The notes under the pieces were generated by a model that was not told the DNA's origin, did no database searches, and worked only from the letters and a program-made list of their open reading frames with translations. A stretch of DNA of 64,000 bases from Rufibacter roseolus (GTDB lineage Bacteria > Bacteroidota > Bacteroidia > Cytophagales > Hymenobacteraceae), in contig NZ_JAFMSU010000002.1 in the NCBI RefSeq assembly GCF_017916365.1, positions 620,001 through 684,000 on the forward strand, written 5' to 3'. This document shows positions 50,786 to 63,663 of this stretch, one piece after another. The stretch's first letter is position 1; the number at the start of each line of letters is the position of its first letter. The position numbers and the translations under genes were made by a program.

Positions 50786-51133
50786 CTATTGGAACGATTC
50801 CAGGGGAAGGGGCAATTCCTCGCCGGTCATCACGAAGAAGAAGTTCTGGAGTTGGTGCACGTATTCTACCGGGGCGCTGGTGGCAATGTAGCCGCCGTTG
50901 AAGACAATCTCCTTGTACTCGGGGTCAAGCGCCCACTGGCTTAGCTGCGGGAAGGTGAACTCGTGCTCCAGGGGGTTGTAAGAGGCACCAGATAGCCATT
51001 CCTCCGTGAGGGGCATAGGTTCAAAAGCCGACCCGTCGCCGCTCAGGATAGAAATCAATCTGGGAGCATCCAGGGCAACTGGTTTGCCCGCTTCCAGAAT
51101 TATGTTGCCCAGCCGTAGTTCATTCGCAAACAT
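50786..51133 (-). CDS. uncharacterised protein of a Bacteroidota/phage-type family
   Basis: A 115-residue protein beginning MFANELRLGNIILEAGKPV and ending with YVHQLQNFFFVMTGEELPLP. Proteins of this pattern (NELRIGN start, PIPLTEEWL, then VHQLQNLYFALTGEEL) occur in many Bacteroidota, often in prophage-like neighbourhoods, and have no assigned function. No other phage gene is adjacent here. The start ATG is followed by a beta-rich, soluble protein with no signal peptide. Confidence 0.6.
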   Translation of the reverse strand: MFANELRLGNIILEAGKPVALDAPRLISILSGDGSAFEPMPLTEEWLSGASYNPLEHEFTFPQLSQWALDPEYKEIVFNGGYIATSAPVEYVHQLQNFFFVMTGEELPLPLESFQ

Positions 51134-51447: not shown

Positions 51448-53922
51448 CTAAGTGCGGTTTACTTCATCAATACTGTTTTGGCGTTTAGGATCAAATTTGG
51501 CGCCTCGGCTGAAATTGTACCGTAGGTTGATGCCTACGCTGCGCGCCCGGAAGTATTGGTCAAATTCATTGATGTTGCGGCCAATGGTTCCCACCTTGAT
51601 GCGCTGACCTTTGAAGATGTCATTGGCATTCACGCTCAGGTCCAGCTTGTCATTCAGGAAGCTTTTCTTGAAACCCACGTTTACCCACCACTGGCTATAT
51701 ACCTCGTACAATCCGTAAGCGGCCGGACCCCGGTACCCAGCATTGATCTCCATTTTCAGTTTGGCCGGCAGCAGCAGGTTGTGGTTGGTCTGAAAGGAGT
51801 AGAACACCTGGTCATTAGTGGCTTTTTGTTCGCCTACCATGGTCATGTATTTGCTATAGGATACCAGTGCGGTATTCTGGGTGTCCCAGTTCTTCATGAT
51901 CTTCACGGGCACGTTAGCGGTGAGGCTGAGGTTATGGCCATCATCCACGTTGCCGATGGTATAGATGGTGAGCGCCCGCTCTACATCCAGGATTGGGATC
52001 TCGGCCATCACGTCTCTGATCAGCTGGTAATTGGCTACCAATGAGTAATCTTTCTTGAAAGTTTGGGTTACCCCGAAAGCGTGGGTGTACTGGGGCCGCA
52101 GACCGGGATTTCCCTGCCAGTAGGTGTAAGGGTCACGGTAGGCGATGAACGGGTTCAGGTTCCCGTAGTTGGGGCGCTGCAGACGGCGGCTGTAGCTATA
52201 GTTGATCTGGTAGTTCTCACTCACCTTTTGTTGCAGGAACAAGCTGGGGAAGAAATCCAAGTATTCGCGTTTGTTCACCTGGTCATAGGTGAGGGACTCG
52301 CCCCGGGAAACGGTCTGCTCGGCTCGTAAACCCGCCTGAATGCTGTACCGCTCGCCTAACTTGCTGCTCCAGTTGGCATATAGTGCATAGATGTCCTCAT
52401 CATAGATGAAATGGTTTGTGCGTCTGGGGTCCAGAATTAGAGCCTCTGAGTTGTTGAAGTAGAAGCGCGAGTCATTGTCTGAGGCTACCCGGCTGGCTTT
52501 GGCCCCGAACTCCACTTTGCGGCCCCTGGAGAACGGATGGCTGTAATCTACCTTCGCCGAGTAAATGTTGTAACCGTTGGGCGTATCGGTGTAAAGGAAG
52601 TCTATGCTGTCGCGCTTGGTGCCGGTGAGGTCAAAATAGTAGTTGTAGAAGTTGGCATCGCCGCGGTTCGTGATCCGCACAAAGTCCAGGTTCGCCGATA
52701 GGGTAGTGCCGGCGGTATCCAGTTTGCCCAGGTAGTGCAGGTTGGTGGTAAAGTTGGTGAACCGGTTGGTATTGTAATTTTTGGCATCTATGTACTGCGT
52801 GGCTGCATTAGGAGCCCCGCCTATGTACGTATCAGTAAGGAAGTCTCCGTGTAGTTTGTTTGTGTTGAAATAAGTCATGAAGCCGATGCTGTGCTTATCG
52901 TTCAGGCTATAATCGGTGCCCTGACGCACGGCCGGCGGACCCTGCACCTCGAAGTTCCCTGTAGCTACCTGATCAAAATACGTGGTGTTCTGCTCGCCGT
53001 AAAAAACACGGGTAAAAGTAGCTTCGCGACCGCCCACACGCCGGGCCACGTCCAGATTTAAAAACGAGTTCCAGGGTCCAGTTTTATAGTTGAAGGTACT
53101 GCCTAACGTGAAGCCCACCTGCTTGAAATTATACGTAGAGCCCCCGTAGACACTGCCGTTCATGCCCTGCACCTCATTCTTCCTTAAGTTAATGTTCAGA
53201 ATACCAGAGGAGCCTTCCGCATCAAACTTCGCCGAGGGGTTGGTAATGATTTCAATGTTCTTGAGGTTCTCGGCGGGCATGCCCTCCAGCAAAGACCGCA
53301 AATCCCGCGCCGATAGGTACGTGAGTTTGCCGTCCAACATCACCGTCACGCCAGACCGGCCGTTGAGCTGGATGTTTCCTTCCTGGTCAATGAAAACGCC
53401 GGGTGCCCGGGTGAGTACGTCATAGGCGGTTCTACCGGCCGCCAGGGCAGTGCCCTGCACGCTCACCACCATTTTGTCGGCTTCCTGGGTAATGGTAGGC
53501 CTTAAACCCTGTACTGTGACCTCTTTCAACTTGGTAGCCGCTACCTTCAGCTTTATCGTGCCCACATGAACCTCAGGTTTCTGATCTGTGAGAACGATGT
53601 TGTGCCTGGAAACCGCCTCATACCCAATAAAGCTGAACGCTAGGTTGTATTCCCCGGCAGCTATCCCGGCAAAAGTGAAACGCCCTTGAGCATCGGTAAG
53701 GGTACCATCCAGCGAGGTGGTGGAACCTTTCCGCAGGAGAGAAACCGTAGTGTACTGCACTGGTTTTCCGGTTATGGAATCAGTCACCACTCCAGAAACT
53801 TTACCTAGGCTCTGGGCAGCAGCGGCAGGCGGGGTACCAGGATTGGTCTGCGCTTTCACCTCCACCAAAAAGTTTAGGCATAGGCATAGCAGCCCCATAA
53901 AAAAGAGGTATCTTTTTTTCAT
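51448..53922 (-). CDS. outer-membrane beta-barrel receptor, paralogue of 8296-10737
   Basis: 824 residues with the same order as the 813-residue receptor: signal peptide (MKKRYLFFMGLLCLCLNFLV...AQ), carboxypeptidase-regulatory-like domain (GKVSGVVTDSITGKPVQYTTV), plug-like region (TQEADKMVVSVQGTALAAG, LNGRSGVTVMLDGKLTYL, NPSAKFDAEGSSGILNINL) and a C-terminal barrel with NLNPFIAYRDPYTYWQGNPG. It ends SIDEVNRT, as does its paralogue (SLDEVNRAG). Ligand unknown. The upstream region does not carry the GTAC direct-repeat operator of the paralogue, so it is controlled differently. Confidence 0.85.
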   Translation of the reverse strand: MKKRYLFFMGLLCLCLNFLVEVKAQTNPGTPPAAAAQSLGKVSGVVTDSITGKPVQYTTVSLLRKGSTTSLDGTLTDAQGRFTFAGIAAGEYNLAFSFIGYEAVSRHNIVLTDQKPEVHVGTIKLKVAATKLKEVTVQGLRPTITQEADKMVVSVQGTALAAGRTAYDVLTRAPGVFIDQEGNIQLNGRSGVTVMLDGKLTYLSARDLRSLLEGMPAENLKNIEIITNPSAKFDAEGSSGILNINLRKNEVQGMNGSVYGGSTYNFKQVGFTLGSTFNYKTGPWNSFLNLDVARRVGGREATFTRVFYGEQNTTYFDQVATGNFEVQGPPAVRQGTDYSLNDKHSIGFMTYFNTNKLHGDFLTDTYIGGAPNAATQYIDAKNYNTNRFTNFTTNLHYLGKLDTAGTTLSANLDFVRITNRGDANFYNYYFDLTGTKRDSIDFLYTDTPNGYNIYSAKVDYSHPFSRGRKVEFGAKASRVASDNDSRFYFNNSEALILDPRRTNHFIYDEDIYALYANWSSKLGERYSIQAGLRAEQTVSRGESLTYDQVNKREYLDFFPSLFLQQKVSENYQINYSYSRRLQRPNYGNLNPFIAYRDPYTYWQGNPGLRPQYTHAFGVTQTFKKDYSLVANYQLIRDVMAEIPILDVERALTIYTIGNVDDGHNLSLTANVPVKIMKNWDTQNTALVSYSKYMTMVGEQKATNDQVFYSFQTNHNLLLPAKLKMEINAGYRGPAAYGLYEVYSQWWVNVGFKKSFLNDKLDLSVNANDIFKGQRIKVGTIGRNINEFDQYFRARSVGINLRYNFSRGAKFDPKRQNSIDEVNRT

Positions 53923-54197
53923 AAGCTAGAGTTGTAGTTTATTTAGATTTTGATGAGACCGGCTATTTGTATTCTAAAGACACCGGTTTATTTCATCAGT
54001 TGCATAGGCGCTAATATTTTTTTAGACAATTAGGGTAAGAGAGTTCTTTTTGGTGATTTAATGCTGGTTATATTTTCTAAAAGAATAAGTGCAAATAACT
54101 TGTCTTCTTGTTCTCGGGTTGTTTTATGAAAAAGAGGTATAAAGCTTAAAAACTGTATTGTGTTAAGATACTGTGATCCATTTTCATCTCTTTCTCT

Positions 54198-54265
54198 GGT
54201 TCAAGTCTGTGACTTGGACCTACCATGGTCTGCAGTTTGCAACTGCGGTGAGGCGTTAGCCTCAA
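54198..54265 (+). repeat. three-hairpin repeat, copy 2
   Basis: GGTTCAAGTCTGTGACTTGG (hairpin 1), GCAGTTTGCAACTGC (hairpin 2, perfect) and TGAGGCGTTAGCCTCA (hairpin 3, perfect) follow each other in 68 bp. Confidence 0.75.
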
Positions 54266-54412: not shown

Positions 54413-54897
54413 AAGAAAAGAAACTCGCTGACGCTCAAACAGTCTTTTCTTCAGTAAGGGTACCACCCCGCTGCCGTCCTCTGTTCCATAGCTAATGCAG
54501 GCTAATACTGCTTGAACTGTCCCTGCTTGCGTCAGGCCGGGCCTCGGCCTCACTTTAGGCCTTTGCCCCTGCCTGCCGCAGGAAACAGATGATTGTGGTG
54601 CCTTTACGGGTTATCTGATCATGTAGAGACAAGGCACGCCTTGTCTCCAACGGGTCCTCCGCAATAACCGGCAGCTACCCGAAAGGACGTCCCCATGCAA
54701 AACCTCTATTTTCTTTGGTTATACCTTTAAGGAACGCCAACCCTTGTTGGTGTTACCACCAACAAGCACAATGCAGGTGCCCAATTAACGAAGTTAGCTT
54801 AGAAAACCAGCCTCTGCAAGCAGGTGTTTTAAGCCTAATTTATCAAAATCAGCCTCAAAACACCTGCCTGCATTTACTGCCATTAAACCTATTGCAC

Positions 54898-57309
54898 TTA
54901 GTCGCGTTTTGATCTGCGGGCCATGCCCATAATCTTCACGTTGATGTATTCGTCCAGGGTTTTGAGGTTGTAGCCTTCCTGGCGGGCTTTTTTGATGAAG
55001 TCGCTGTTGACACCGTGGATTTTGGCTTCAATGGCTTTGTCCGCTGGCAGGTTTTTGAAACCGGCGTTGGCTAGATCATCCAAATAGGCTTTGTTGACGC
55101 CATGGATTCTCAGTTCCATGTACTTGTCTAAAGACAGGTCTTTGAAGCCGTAGGCTCTCAGCTCTTCTACGGCCTTGGCGTTCACCCCATGGATTTTAGC
55201 ATCCACCACTTTGTCCAGGCTCAGGTTGTTGAACCCCGCTGATTTCAGGTCCTTCACGTAGGCGGCATTGATGCCGTGGATTTTCAGTTGGATGTATTTG
55301 TCCAGGGTAAAGTCGCCGAAGCCCATGGATTTCACTTCGGTCAGGTAAGAAGGAGTGATGCCGTGGATTTTAGCCTCAATGAGTTTGTCAATGGAAAGGT
55401 CATTGAACCCAGCTTTCCGGAGTCCGTCTGCGTAGGCCGGGGTTACGCCGTGGATTTTTGCTTCCATCATTTTGTCCATGGAAAGGTTTTTGAAGCCCAT
55501 TTCCTGCAGTTGCTGCACATATTCCTGGGTGATGCCGTGGATTCTGGCGGAGATCACGTCTTCCATAGAAGGTTTCTTGTCGCTGTGTTTCTTGAACATA
55601 GCCAGGTAATTTTGGTAAGCGTCCATGGTGATGCCGTGGATGGCGATTTCCTGCAGGCGGTCACCGTCTACATCGTTATAGGTGGACTTCAGGAAATCGA
55701 CGTACTTTTTGTTCACATCCCCCAGGAAAAGGTGGAAAAGGAAGTTATCCTCAGGGTTGGCAATGCCTTTCTTGAACAGGTAATCTCTGAAATTATCATC
55801 CTGCGTGAAGACGTATTTGCCCTGGCTTACCTCCTCAGAAAGGTTGCCGGTTAGTTTCAGCGTGCCTGCATCGCGGGTGATCTGGTACACGTTGTCGCCT
55901 TGTTTGGTGAAGGCGTTTTTAGGGTAGCACCGGGAAATGTTCCAGTTAGAGGTATTGGTTTTGCCTCTCAGGTCCAGGCAGTACTCGTTTTGGTTGGCAT
56001 GGCCGTACCAGAAACCTTCAGTCATATCGGCGCTGCCGATGATGTTCATTCGGTTCCGGAACCTGGGTGGTGCGGGAAGGATGTTGCCCGGATTGTCTGC
56101 TTCCAGGACAGATTCAGCGGCCTGCGGATTGCCGGGATGCGGCGGCAGGTTTTCATCTGCCAGGATGGATTTTTGTCCGCCGGGGAGCGGCGAGGGTTCT
56201 GCCTCAGGACTGCTTAGAGGTGCTGGGTCAGATGATAATAAAGGAACCTGCGGCAATCTGCTGGCCACGGTGGAATAGGCGTCAGAAACGTCTTCCAGAA
56301 TGGTTTGACTGGTGGCGGGCTTGTTCAACAACAGCAGCGTCCCGAAGACCATCGGCGCCAGGAAGGTGTATTTCCAAAAGGCATGCGGGGTAGATTTCTT
56401 GGCGTTCATCATGAATATGCGTTGTTTGAGAAGTGACTGGTTATAGTTGGTGGTGATGGAAAGCGGTTTGTTGGGGCAGGCAATCTGCAGCAGGTTGAAC
56501 TGGTACTGGGTTTTACTTACCTCTTCTTTCTCCAGCAGCAGGGCATCTGTCTGGTACTCCAGGTTCTTTTCAACCTCTTTTTTGAAATACCACATGAAAG
56601 GGTTGAACCACAGCAGGATAACAGCCACCTCGGCTAAAAGTAGGTCTAGGGTGTGGTTCTGCCGCACATGTATTTTCTCGTGCGCGATGATCTGCTCATA
56701 GGTCTCAAAGTCATAGTCGTCTGGGTGGATGAAGATGTATTTGAAGAAGGAGCAGGGGGCTTGTTTGCTTTCTACATTCACAATCACGTAGTCGCCGTCT
56801 TCAATGCGGTCCTGGCTACGAATGGCTTTCAAGAGGGTACCCGCGATCTGGAACAGTAGGTTGAGTCCGCAGACCGCCACCCCGAACAGGTACAGCAACA
56901 CGAGCCAGAAAACCCAGGTGGTGGGTGCTTCAACCTCGGCGGTAGGAGTGGTAGCCGTTACAACCGGTTGTCTTGGGCTGAGTACCTCCTCGGGTGCAGT
57001 TTCCCGGTTGGGAGCCAGGTTTTCTTTCCCGGTGCTTAACCTGTTTTGAGCCTGATTTTCAGATTTCGGGCGCAAAACAGAGGCGGCTTCAGCCTCGGCT
57101 GTCTGGGTCACTTTAAGCGCTTCGGAGATAAACCCCTGGTTGTCTACCAGTTTAGGTAGCGTGACAAAAGGTAGGGCAAATGCCAGCGTGATGCCGCACA
57201 GCAGGTACATCCGATTGGTGGAGAAAAAGCTTTCCTGCTGCAGCACCGTTTTGTAGAACAGGAAAACCACGCCAATCACGAAAGAAACTTTGAGGAGGTA
57301 TTCTATCAT
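54898..57309 (-). CDS. M56/BlaR1-type membrane peptidase with C-terminal IHG repeats
   Basis: An 803-residue protein. The N-terminal half (about 1-330) is an M56 domain with about four membrane helices and the zinc motif HEKIH (about residue 210) followed by NPFMWYFKKEVEKNLEYQTD. A disordered Pro/Ser/Glu-rich region follows (about 335-420), then a globular segment (about 425-550). The last ~250 residues are about eight tandem units of 29 residues of the form AKIHGVxxxYxxxLxxxGFxxLSxDKxxE, visible in DNA as an 87-bp periodicity (54.9-55.65 kb). No penicillin-binding sensor domain is present, so the repeats may be the sensing part. It should cleave the BlaI repressor encoded next to it on an unknown signal. 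Confidence 0.88.
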   Translation of the reverse strand: MIEYLLKVSFVIGVVFLFYKTVLQQESFFSTNRMYLLCGITLAFALPFVTLPKLVDNQGFISEALKVTQTAEAEAASVLRPKSENQAQNRLSTGKENLAPNRETAPEEVLSPRQPVVTATTPTAEVEAPTTWVFWLVLLYLFGVAVCGLNLLFQIAGTLLKAIRSQDRIEDGDYVIVNVESKQAPCSFFKYIFIHPDDYDFETYEQIIAHEKIHVRQNHTLDLLLAEVAVILLWFNPFMWYFKKEVEKNLEYQTDALLLEKEEVSKTQYQFNLLQIACPNKPLSITTNYNQSLLKQRIFMMNAKKSTPHAFWKYTFLAPMVFGTLLLLNKPATSQTILEDVSDAYSTVASRLPQVPLLSSDPAPLSSPEAEPSPLPGGQKSILADENLPPHPGNPQAAESVLEADNPGNILPAPPRFRNRMNIIGSADMTEGFWYGHANQNEYCLDLRGKTNTSNWNISRCYPKNAFTKQGDNVYQITRDAGTLKLTGNLSEEVSQGKYVFTQDDNFRDYLFKKGIANPEDNFLFHLFLGDVNKKYVDFLKSTYNDVDGDRLQEIAIHGITMDAYQNYLAMFKKHSDKKPSMEDVISARIHGITQEYVQQLQEMGFKNLSMDKMMEAKIHGVTPAYADGLRKAGFNDLSIDKLIEAKIHGITPSYLTEVKSMGFGDFTLDKYIQLKIHGINAAYVKDLKSAGFNNLSLDKVVDAKIHGVNAKAVEELRAYGFKDLSLDKYMELRIHGVNKAYLDDLANAGFKNLPADKAIEAKIHGVNSDFIKKARQEGYNLKTLDEYINVKIMGMARRSKRD

Positions 57310-57321
57310 GGCTTTCAGGGT

Positions 57322-57687
57322 TTAGGATGATTTCTTGGATTTGATGATCTGGATAAGCTCGTCTAACTCAGCATCAGAGAGGTTTTCCTCCTTCGCAAAA
57401 TGGGTGATCATCTTGGAGAAAGAATTCCCGAAGTACTTCTGCTTAATGCTGGCCACATCCTGGGTACGGTACTCAGCCAGGGGCACCAGCGGCGTGTACT
57501 GCAGGGTGTTGCCTACTTTCTCTGAGCGCAGGAAGCCTTTTTCGTCCAGGATCTTCACCATAGTGGCCACGGTGTTGTAGTGCGGTTTTGGTTCTGGCAG
57601 CGCGTCAATGATATCCTTGATGAAGGCTTTCTCTAACCGCCAAATGATCTGCATGATCTGCTCTTCCCTTTTCCCTAGTTTCTGCAT
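57322..57687 (-). CDS. BlaI/MecI/CopY family repressor
   Basis: A 121-residue winged-helix repressor. Family blocks: LGKREEQIMQIIWRLEKAFIKD, LPEPKPHYNTVATMVKILDEKGFL (recognition helix region), VGNTLQYTPLVPLAEY and a C-terminal dimerisation helix FSKMITHFAKEENLSDAELDEL. It represses until the M56 peptidase cleaves it. The gene is upstream of, and probably cotranscribed with, the M56 gene (12-bp gap). It probably autoregulates through the palindrome at 57710-57747. Confidence 0.93.
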   Translation of the reverse strand: MQKLGKREEQIMQIIWRLEKAFIKDIIDALPEPKPHYNTVATMVKILDEKGFLRSEKVGNTLQYTPLVPLAEYRTQDVASIKQKYFGNSFSKMITHFAKEENLSDAELDELIQIIKSKKSS

Positions 57688-57709: not shown

Positions 57710-57747
57710 CTACTAATAAGTTAGGAGAACTCCTAATGAATTAGTAG
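57710..57747. promoter_or_regulatory. BlaI-type operator palindrome
   Basis: CTACTAAT (57710-57717) and ATTAGTAG (57740-57747) flank a perfect inner palindrome TTAGGAG-AA-CTCCTAA (57721-57736). Both have the same centre, at 57728.5. TACTA/TAGTA arms are typical BlaI half-sites. It lies 23 bp upstream of the repressor start. Confidence 0.6.
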
Positions 57748-57989
57748 AAAAACTATTGCAGTAGGAGAGCAGATGTACTGAATGTCCTTGGAGGCACTTT
57801 TATCCTGGAAAAAAGAGGTTTCCCTATTCAGTGAATGGCCTTTGGCGTAGAAGAGGGCAAGCCTGCAGAAGACAATGACCTACTTCTTGTTGCGGGTGAG
57901 AATAAAGGCAACTGTACTCTTCAGTGAATTGCTTAAAAAGACCCTTAAATCAGCTTTTTTAAAGCAATTGCAGAGGTGACAGATAGTAG

Positions 57990-61276: not shown

Positions 61277-61344
61277 GGTTCAAGTCTGTAACTTGGACCT
61301 AAAATGACCGGCAGTTTGCAACTGCCGTGAGGCAATAGCCTTAA
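61277..61344 (+). repeat. three-hairpin repeat, copy 3
   Basis: GGTTCAAGTCTGTAACTTGG (hairpin 1), GGCAGTTTGCAACTGCC (hairpin 2, perfect) and TGAGGCAATAGCCTTA (hairpin 3). Confidence 0.75.
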
Positions 61345-61758: not shown

Positions 61759-63663
61759 ATGGAAAGAATTAAATTCCAGGAGCTTCCTCTATCGGAAGAA
61801 ATCCAGCGTGCGATCGTGGATTTAGGTTACGAAGAAGCTTCCCCCATCCAGACCGCCGCTATTCCGGTGTTGCTGGAAGGTCGTGACGTTATTGGTCAGG
61901 CCCAGACAGGTACCGGTAAAACGGCTGCTTTCGCTATCCCTACCATTGAGGCCATTGACCCAAACAACCGCGACGTGCAGGCTCTGATCCTGTGCCCCAC
62001 CCGCGAGTTGGCCATTCAGGTATCGGAAGAGATCCAAAAACTGGTTAAATACAAAAAAGGCATCAGCGTAGTGCCTATCTATGGTGGTCAGCCCTATGAG
62101 CGCCAGTTACGCGCCCTCAAACAAGGGGTACAGATCGTGATCGGGACGCCCGGCCGCGTGATGGACCATATTGAGCGGGGAACCCTGCAGTTGGAGAACA
62201 CCAAGAAGATCATTCTTGATGAGGCCGACGAAATGCTGGACATGGGTTTCAGAGAGGACATTGAGTTCGTGCTGAGCCACATGCCGGAAGATCGTCAGAC
62301 CATCTTCTTCTCTGCTACTATGAGTAAGCCCATCATGGAGCTGACGCGCAAGTACCAGACCAACCCAGAGGTGGTGAAGGTGACCCAGCAGCAGCTGACC
62401 GTGACCAACATTGAGCAGATCTACTTTGAAGTACGCAGCGGCGGCAAGATGGAAGTAACCACTCGCCTCATTGACATGTACAATTTCAAAGTGGTGATCA
62501 TCTTCTGTAATACCAAACGCATGGTAGACGAGCTGGTGAGCAACCTGCAGGCCCGTGGCTACTTCGCCGATGGTTTGCATGGAGACCTGAACCAGAACCA
62601 GCGGAACAACGTGATGACCAAGTTCAAAGCGGGTACCCTGGAAATCCTGGTTGCCACTGACGTAGCTGCCCGCGGTATTGACGTGGACAACGTGGAGGCC
62701 GTGATCAACTATGACCTACCGCAGGACGAAGAAAACTATGTACACCGCATAGGGCGTACTGGCCGTGCCGGTAAATCAGGAAAAGCGTTCTCATTTGTAG
62801 CGGGTCGTGACCTGTACAAACTGCGTGACATTGAGCGTTTCACCAAAGCCAAGATCGTTCGTCAGAACGTTCCTACCTATGAAGACGTGGCCGAAGTGCG
62901 CACCACCTTGGTGTTGGATCAGGTGAAAGAAGTTATTCAAAAAGGTGGGTTGTCTAAGCACATCCTTAAAATTGAGCGTCTTGTGGATCAGGATTTCACC
63001 ACCATTGACATTGCCGCGGCTTTGTTGAAACTGGTGATGAAAGACACCAAGAACAAAGAAAAGAGCGCCGAGGCCGCTGAAGGCAAAGGTGGTCCTAAAC
63101 CAGGTTTCGACCGTCTGTTCGTGACTCTGGGCAAGAAAGACCGTCTGCACCCCAAAGACCTGGTAGATATCCTCACCGATAACACCAGCATCCCGGGCGG
63201 CAAAGTAGGTGACATTGACCTGTATGACCGTTTCAGCTTCATTGAGGTACCAACCGAGTACACTTCTGAGATCCTGGAGCGCTTAGCGGTTACTGAAATC
63301 AACGGCATGACCGTGAAGTTCCAGAAAGCCGAGAAGAAAAACATGGATCCAGCTGAAGGTGGCCGTGAGCTGCAGGAACTGGAAGACCGTCCTAGAAAGA
63401 AATTCTACGATGGACCTTTCAACCGCGGTGGCGGAGACCGTGACCGTGGTGGCGACCGCGGAGGAAGCAGAGGCGGCTACGGCGGAGACCGTGGTGGCGA
63501 TCGTGGCGGCCGTTCTTACGGTGGCGACAGAGACCGCGGTGGCGACCGTGGCGGAAGAAGCTACGGTGGCGGTGACCGCGGTGGCAGAAGCTTCGGCGGA
63601 GGAGACCGTGACCGCGGTAACAGCGGTGGCGGCTTCCGGGAAAGAAAAAGAAGAGATTTCTAA
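61759..63663 (+). CDS. deaD: DEAD-box ATP-dependent RNA helicase (DeaD/CsdA type)
   Basis: A 634-residue helicase; the ATG at 61759 (MERIKFQELPLSEE) is preferred to the TTG directly before it. Motifs in order: Q motif SPIQTAAIP, motif I AQTGTGKT (about residue 47), Ia PTRELAIQ, II DEAD in ILDEADEMLDMGF (about 155), III SAT, IV-V region VATDVAARGIDV and VI HRIGRTGRAGKSG. A C-terminal domain (about 385-540) resembles the DbpA/CsdA-type RNA-binding fold. The last ~80 residues are Gly/Arg/Asp repeats (RGGDRGG type) that bind RNA nonspecifically. It remodels ribosomal precursors and mRNA, especially in the cold. The leader (61604-61758) may be thermoregulated. Confidence 0.95.
   Translation: MERIKFQELPLSEEIQRAIVDLGYEEASPIQTAAIPVLLEGRDVIGQAQTGTGKTAAFAIPTIEAIDPNNRDVQALILCPTRELAIQVSEEIQKLVKYKKGISVVPIYGGQPYERQLRALKQGVQIVIGTPGRVMDHIERGTLQLENTKKIILDEADEMLDMGFREDIEFVLSHMPEDRQTIFFSATMSKPIMELTRKYQTNPEVVKVTQQQLTVTNIEQIYFEVRSGGKMEVTTRLIDMYNFKVVIIFCNTKRMVDELVSNLQARGYFADGLHGDLNQNQRNNVMTKFKAGTLEILVATDVAARGIDVDNVEAVINYDLPQDEENYVHRIGRTGRAGKSGKAFSFVAGRDLYKLRDIERFTKAKIVRQNVPTYEDVAEVRTTLVLDQVKEVIQKGGLSKHILKIERLVDQDFTTIDIAAALLKLVMKDTKNKEKSAEAAEGKGGPKPGFDRLFVTLGKKDRLHPKDLVDILTDNTSIPGGKVGDIDLYDRFSFIEVPTEYTSEILERLAVTEINGMTVKFQKAEKKNMDPAEGGRELQELEDRPRKKFYDGPFNRGGGDRDRGGDRGGSRGGYGGDRGGDRGGRSYGGDRDRGGDRGGRSYGGGDRGGRSFGGGDRDRGNSGGGFRERKRRDF
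63424..63645 (+). repeat. Gly/Arg/Asp-rich coding repeats
   Basis: Tandem variants of GGCGACCGTGGTGGC-like DNA encoding RGG, DRGG and RSYGG units in the C-terminus of the helicase. Confidence 0.7.

Follow-up and report, generated by a model that had tools for sequence, protein, structure and literature searches.

BlaR1 is the textbook membrane protease that responds to an outside signal by destroying a repressor, and it is at once the sensor and a product of its own operon; the literature consulted on it deals with beta-lactams. The Staphylococcus aureus BlaR1 structure paper describes a protein with HExxH and ExxxD motifs and an N-out, C-out topology that cleaves itself at Ser283-Phe284 and cleaves BlaI directly, and it mentions a Mycobacterium tuberculosis BlaR1 homologue that is also devoid of the sensor domain (PMC9834060). 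The locus analysed here lies in a stretch of 64,000 nucleotides (nt) of Rufibacter roseolus (NZ_JAFMSU010000002.1, positions 620,001-684,000, forward strand), hereafter the window. It encodes a BlaR1-type M56 metallopeptidase of 803 amino acids (aa), the C-terminal module of which consists of a GxW beta domain followed by an array of helical repeats, and a BlaI-family repressor directly upstream. This M56-BlaI variant is real, conserved and undescribed in the libraries tested, and it is probably no beta-lactam sensor.

The protease part is that of an M56 peptidase. The Pfam scan matched Peptidase_M56 (PF05569) to residues 118-300 with 55.2 bits against a cut-off of 31, and the zinc site is intact, with HEKIH at residues 210-214 and E251YQTD, carrying E251xxxD255, 41 residues on. 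Hydrophobic peaks are located near residues 1-23, 34-52, 133-151, 221-239 and 310-328, that is, four separate regions and one just after HExxH (221-239), and the membrane part of the AlphaFold2 model is of low confidence. Residues 174-322 align to residues 159-317 of S. aureus BlaR1 (chain 8exs) with an E-value of 4.4e-5, pairing HEKIH with H201EXXH and EYQTD with E242XXXD; behind the autocleavage loop, SLLKQR is paired with SLLKRR. All 29 M56-repeat proteins examined keep the HExxH...ExxxD arrangement, as established by pattern for 28 and by reading for L087 (HEKTH); the 17 full-length relatives within the family all keep HExxH. A penicillin-binding domain was not found by the Pfam scan at E <= 1, and the BlaR1 models gave 17.4 and 25.5 bits on the window protein against cut-offs of 400 and 1200. 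A BlaR1-family protease next to BlaI could still be an ordinary sensor of beta-lactams or cell-wall stress, with its penicillin-binding domain lost or hidden, and the M. tuberculosis homologue mentioned in the structure paper is a precedent for such a loss (PMC9834060). We hold this to be improbable, given the missing domain, model scores far below cut-off, and a conserved and specific module in the place of the sensor.

A preliminary description of this DNA had read the C-terminus as about eight tandem IHG repeats of 29 residues that replace the beta-lactam sensor. The repeats are confirmed, with IHG starts at residues 557, 590, 619, 648, 677, 706, 735 and 764 and a closing IMG at 793; this gives one unit of 33 residues and seven of 29, with a degenerate earlier unit near residue 532. 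The idea of a replacement stands in that the module is placed after the last hydrophobic stretch and no penicillin-binding domain was found, but the array is only a part of what occupies this position, since the GxW beta domain precedes it. The homology of the units is borne out by a mean pairwise identity of 0.44 among the seven 29-aa units and by identities of 0.44 at lag 29 and 0.46 at lag 58, compared with at most 0.159 for the best lag from 15 to 59 in 2,000 shuffles. At the DNA level, Tandem Repeats Finder called only 2.2 copies of 87 bp (55355-55543, 75% matches), so the duplication is old and is best seen in the protein. The unit count and register are identical in 18 aligned family proteins, and in 1636 of 2142 comparisons between genomes a unit has its best match in the unit of equal position, which argues for a rod of fixed structure rather than a drifting array. 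One could regard the repeats as a passive spacer or a low-complexity expansion with no specific function, as repeat arrays are common and the DNA copies have diverged; the fixed unit number, the position-specific conservation in 18 orthologues, the confident prediction of a repeat rod (below) and the existence of free-standing homologues render this very improbable.

Structure prediction, proposed in the preliminary description as a test for a solenoid, gave a helical-repeat rod. AlphaFold2, run on residues 417-803 together with three orthologues, returned a mean predicted local distance difference test score (pLDDT) of 83.5 and a predicted template modelling score of 0.69. The predicted fold comprises eight strands and a helix (431-513), followed by paired short helices up to the C-terminus, forming an alpha/alpha repeat rod; the full-length model agrees on the module and is unreliable before residue 428. 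The linker in front of the module contains 17 prolines within residues 330-427 (98 residues), and the majority-residue fraction of residues 336-415 across 18 family members is 0.40. The G and W of the GxW start of the beta domain are invariant in 13 of 13 rows. Foldseek searches of the PDB with both models gave nothing at E <= 0.001, the top match being a designed nanocage (E 9.3e-3); several lipocalins are among the weak matches of the beta domain, at E 0.14 or worse. The Pfam and NCBIfam scans provided no convincing model for the array or the beta domain. Two short matches, to HHH_5 (27.2 against a cut-off of 27, stretch 618-659) and to UBA_3 (23.6 against 20.4, with no stretch passing alone), were judged accidental. 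The distant member L053 passes the Pfam model 'Decapeptide' (68.6, cut-off 45) and three other helical models. A metal-binding ladder of the IHG histidines was also considered and rejected: in several distant M56-repeat proteins the histidine is not kept, IHG being replaced by KYG, RYD, NGI, VLG or ALG types (by eye), which makes a general role in metal binding unlikely.

The gene upstream encodes a BlaI-type repressor, its open reading frame (ORF; 57322-57687, minus strand) matching Penicillinase_R (PF03965) with 112.1 bits against a cut-off of 22.6. The repressor and the putative operator that had been reported beside the M56 gene are real and are conserved together in 18 of 18 full-length family loci, BlaI being directly upstream in each. 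Dyads of the type TMCTAANNNNTTAGKA, exactly 20 nt apart, precede blaI, and at least two with at least 10 of 12 consensus positions are found in all 18 of these loci; the window has TACTAANNNNTTAGGA at 57711-57726 and 57731-57746. A third dyad, with 10-12 positions, occurs at the corresponding place in 15 of 17 family relatives. We consider these conserved dyads to be putative BlaI operators. At the level of the family, the array is present in 19 of 200 genomes searched, of which 18 (own included) have the full-length form and one, G483, a degenerate remnant of about 100 aa, which suggests loss of the pair from an older arrangement; within the genus, it is found in 5 of the 16 genomes listed. 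The unit profile recovered the array in the close relatives L035-L037, in which the full-length protein is 82, 71 and 65% identical (L082-L084 are taken as the same sequences, the proteins being of equal lengths), and the nearest named relative is Rufibacter hautae, with 82% protein identity.

Beyond the family, the C-terminal part (397 aa) was searched against 395 genomes of the phylum at E <= 1e-6 and matched in 55. Loci are given for 30 of these 55 (own included), 20 wider stretches were taken from 18 of the 55, and M56 was verified in 12 of the 55 (own included). The unit also occurs in other M56 proteins; the weakest match listed for the unit profile is 2.3e-5. All 11 distant M56-repeat loci have BlaI directly upstream, with a gap of -4 to 31 nt, and dyads of the same or a related type are seen by eye before their blaI genes (e.g. 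TACTAATNNATTAGT and TGCTAGTATNCTAGCA; that of L053, TACGAANNNNTTCGTA, is of the TACGAA type, and L049 has one dyad only). In the phylum of Lawsonibacter, 0 of 299 genomes matched, in a set that holds no positive control. Comparable M56 proteins may also exist in Acidobacteriota. The beta-domain profile matched in 14 of 395 phylum genomes, solidly (E <= 6.1e-10) in 12: eleven of the solid matches are in repeat proteins examined here, and that of G283, a candidate for a further M56-repeat protein with frames of 1054-1073 aa, is in a frame that also matches the repeats. Of the two weak matches, G082 (5.2e-6) is by eye a different, hydrolase-like secreted protein, and G350 reaches 9.3e-4. The GxW beta domain is thus nearly always linked to a repeat array. 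Among the repeat proteins devoid of M56, those of L045 and L047 are apparently secreted, and the others are mostly of 230-290 residues with one apparent membrane segment (e.g. L054, L056-L058 and L060). As a separate observation, the repeat genes of L054 (5583-6293) and L057 (4985-5845), from one family of the phylum, encode products of 236 and 286 aa, each with a single apparent membrane segment, and adjoin a response-regulator-like gene and a small secreted-looking protein, and L055 (5393-8297, minus strand) has three adjacent proteins with similar N-termini, at least the first of which carries diverged, helical-looking repeats of about 30 residues.

We propose that a single protein acts here as a transmembrane signalling protease of the BlaR1 type whose input module is a different and uncharacterised one, a reading to which we assign about even chances. 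BlaI would repress its own operon through the tandem dyads at the promoter, while the membrane part would carry the zinc protease site facing the cytosol and a flexible proline-rich tether would hold the GxW beta domain and the helical-repeat rod in the periplasm. Ligand binding would move the module and open the protease, which would then clip BlaI and so derepress blaI-m56, together with extra module copies where the operon has them. The ligand would most likely be a protein or another envelope component, because the repeat surface is extended. Several points weigh against this proposal. The M56 part of the AlphaFold2 model has a pLDDT under 50, the conserved Asp210 of BlaR1 aligns to His219, and the autocleavage P1' residue Phe284 (Ala in chain 8exs) aligns to Thr287, the loop region itself being aligned. 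Of the 29 other genomes for which a locus was given, 19 have a repeat ORF of 144-349 aa without HExxH, from which it follows that the repeats are not dedicated sensors. Finally, the tandem 20-nt pairs listed for the 18 genomes all lie at the blaI promoter, and 20 single exact sites elsewhere, in 7 of the 18, compare with 33 for the reversed control; the circuit thus seems to have hardly any target beyond itself. The interpretation of the preliminary description is consequently supported in part: the protease, BlaI, the operator and the homology of the repeats speak for it, and the occurrence of repeats in proteins without M56 speaks against it; a sensing role of the repeats is an inference.

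In the genome of R. roseolus, the exact operator pattern occurs twice, both times at the blaI promoter, as the only strong operator pair; with one mismatch allowed, 33 sites were found compared with 43 for the reversed control, hence no excess. The visible target of BlaI therefore seems, as judged from operator patterns, to be the blaI-m56 operon itself, and the module may be what the circuit regulates, in addition to or in place of being its sensor. The strongest alternative takes this further. The module would be an output, and the circuit would hold constant the level of a periplasmic scaffold, chaperone or binding protein: M56 would report whether the module is free or bound, and derepression would raise its supply, in some species through soluble secreted copies. 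Besides the operon's own promoter as the only place of the exact pattern in this genome and of listed tandem 20-nt pairs in the 18 genomes, it draws on L041, L042 and L044, where further beta-repeat proteins without M56, with apparent signal peptides or an N-terminal hydrophobic segment (by eye), are encoded after the M56 gene. In L042 and L044, the M56 protein has repeats and no detected beta domain, the free protein combines the beta domain with IHG-type repeats, and this free protein is nearer to the window units (E 1.4e-65 and 1.8e-61) than the repeats of its M56 partner (1.1e-27 and 9e-23). Nevertheless, the other 8 of the 11 distant loci and the 18 family loci have no extra copy beside M56, the pattern would miss single or diverged operators, and a product of the operon can also be its sensor, as in BlaR1; we regard the alternative as possible but rather unlikely.

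The beta-repeat module was found once in the R. roseolus genome, in the window, and the blaI-m56 pair is best understood as a unit that is present in a single copy, is inherited patchily and for the most part regulates itself. A mobile or phage origin was considered and set aside, the array matching nothing in the collections of plasmids and phages. Searched against plasmids, the secreted relative from L044 produced three weak matches judged to be chance repeat similarity, one in Rhizobium (an ALSTxQIAALST repeat of different period) and two in Xanthomonas (annotated AvrBs3); the secreted relative L045 gave no plasmid match. Among viral contigs there was no relative, the patterns used being two beta-domain peptides, which have little bearing on the repeats.

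The features of the locus are compiled in Table 1.

Table 1. Coordinates in the window of the blaI-m56 locus and its neighbouring outer-membrane protein gene.
Feature	Coordinates	Strand	Basis or remark
BlaR1-type M56 membrane metallopeptidase, 803 aa, ending in the beta domain and repeat array	54898..57309	-	ORF; PF05569 match; full-length relatives
N-terminal membrane and protease part, residues 1-330	56320..57309	-	Pfam, hydrophobic profile, BlaR1 alignment
Catalytic HEKIH, residues 210-214	56668..56682	-	Partner E251xxxD255 at 56545-56559
Pro-rich variable linker, residues 331-427	56029..56319	-	Pro count, low conservation, pLDDT under 50
GxW beta domain, residues 428-515	55765..56028	-	Eight predicted strands and one helix
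Helical-repeat array, residues 532-792	54934..55716	-	Degenerate unit at about 532, 33-residue IHG unit at 557, seven 29-residue IHG units at 590-792
BlaI/MecI-family repressor, 121 aa	57322..57687	-	12 nt upstream of M56 start; PF03965
Operator-like dyad TACTAATAAGTTAGGA	57711..57726	.	12/12 consensus positions; place kept in relatives
Operator-like dyad, 20 nt from the first	57731..57746	.	12/12 consensus positions
Degenerate third dyad	57751..57766	.	9/12 consensus positions, by eye
Long-looped inverted repeat directly 3' of M56 stop codon	54816..54871	-	By eye; possible end of blaI-m56 unit
TonB-receptor-like outer-membrane protein (OMP): CarboxypepD_reg, Plug, OMP_b-brl_3	51448..53922	-	Pfam; probably separate transcription unit

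Inverted repeats were also seen by eye 3' of the M56 gene in L035 and L037. A scan of 54650-54990 with a loop limit of 8 returned no terminator-like and no sigma-70 promoter-like site, the inverted repeat in the table having a longer loop. Elsewhere in the window, a dispersed element around AAGTCACAGACTTGAAC (neighbouring text GCAGTTGCAAACTGC) lies at 54199-54215 and 61278-61294, both on the minus strand; it has 48 genome copies at no more than one mismatch and none in the reversed control, looks like a REP-type repeat, and is also present in the same intergenic region of L035 and L037. A tandem repeat at 63442-63608 (plus strand) corresponds to the RGG-type tail of a DEAD-box RNA helicase (named by eye).

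FecR/FecA is a system in which an outer-membrane receptor signals through a sigma/anti-sigma pair, and the gene next to the M56 gene invites a comparison. In 14 of 18 family loci, across two genera, the gene that follows on the same strand encodes a protein with OMP_b-brl_3 (in L084, a 109-aa ORF stands between M56 and OMP, and in L091 the OMP frame is broken). The module could thus dock to a neighbouring TonB-type receptor, read its state in a FecR/FecA-like manner and signal to BlaI by proteolysis, and the tether and rod could be long enough to span the periplasm. Against such docking, the gap between M56 and OMP measures 247-1040 nt, and control of the OMP gene by BlaI was rejected, no operator-like site in the gap rising above background (the best there reach 7-9 of 12, compared with 42 sites of score 9 in the window by itself). 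The OMP neighbour is missing in four family loci, namely three of genus g174 and L087, and none of the stretches fetched for the 11 distant M56-repeat loci encodes an OMP relative. Moreover, many genomes that lack the repeat protein or blaI-m56 have an OMP orthologue, and in 20 of 20 loci with OMP but no repeat protein, no frame of at least 50 aa for BlaI, M56 or the module was found; the pair therefore comes and goes together. OMP is accordingly a possible, weakly supported partner of the module, and docking to it appears unlikely. Near the OMP gene of the window and of several relatives lies a small uncharacterised gene of 115 aa (50786-51133, minus strand), and in 10 of 14 regions upstream of the OMP gene (e.g. 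window 53923-53982) the word GTCTTTA, a possible promoter element, lies no more than 60 nt ahead of the start.

Returning to the BlaR1-type protease with its own module, it is tempting, as a tentative and rather long extrapolation, to envisage a widespread, undescribed envelope system of Bacteroidota in which a BlaR1-type protease and BlaI would watch over, and control the supply of, periplasmic repeat-rod proteins; these would be joined to the protease in Rufibacter-like genomes and split into free secreted subunits elsewhere. If this were true, the rod would bind a common envelope component, and the system would constitute a proteolytic pathway of envelope homeostasis unrelated to antibiotics. 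The data point to an unexplored class of envelope signals or envelope proteins under a BlaR1-type switch, and the module offers a concrete, cloneable target for finding another envelope signal. Among the papers listed in searches of the open PMC literature, none was on M56 proteins with such repeats, subscription papers being outside the scope of that search.

With respect to known systems, the rod resembles the alpha-solenoid families (HEAT, TPR, PPR and TALE) in having two short helices per tandem unit, but differs from them in its 29-residue unit and IHG...GF..LS.DK signature, without a convincing match in Pfam or, at E <= 0.001, in the PDB. Like FecR/FecA, the locus has a periplasmic domain that might be read against a TonB-type receptor gene next door, whereas its output would be a protease and a repressor in place of sigma and anti-sigma factors. 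Three other M56-BlaI pairs of the same genome (L001, L003 and L004) share an M56 match preceded by a BlaI-like ORF (BlaI by eye), the beta-repeat module being confined to the window protein. The closest relationship is to BlaR1/MecR1 of S. aureus (PDB 8EXP-8EXT) and BlaI/MecI, with which the locus shares the M56 gluzincin core (HExxH/ExxxD), a comparable hydrophobic profile, a C-terminal module predicted here to be extracytoplasmic, an adjacent BlaI-family repressor and promoter dyads. It departs from them in carrying a GxW beta domain and a helical-repeat rod instead of a penicillin-binding domain, and in being followed by a gene for an outer-membrane protein rather than for a beta-lactamase or penicillin-binding protein. 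A conserved non-penicillin module on the chassis of BlaR1, with BlaI and the putative operators intact and with free copies of the module in some species, suggests that the M56-BlaI switch may serve other envelope signals.

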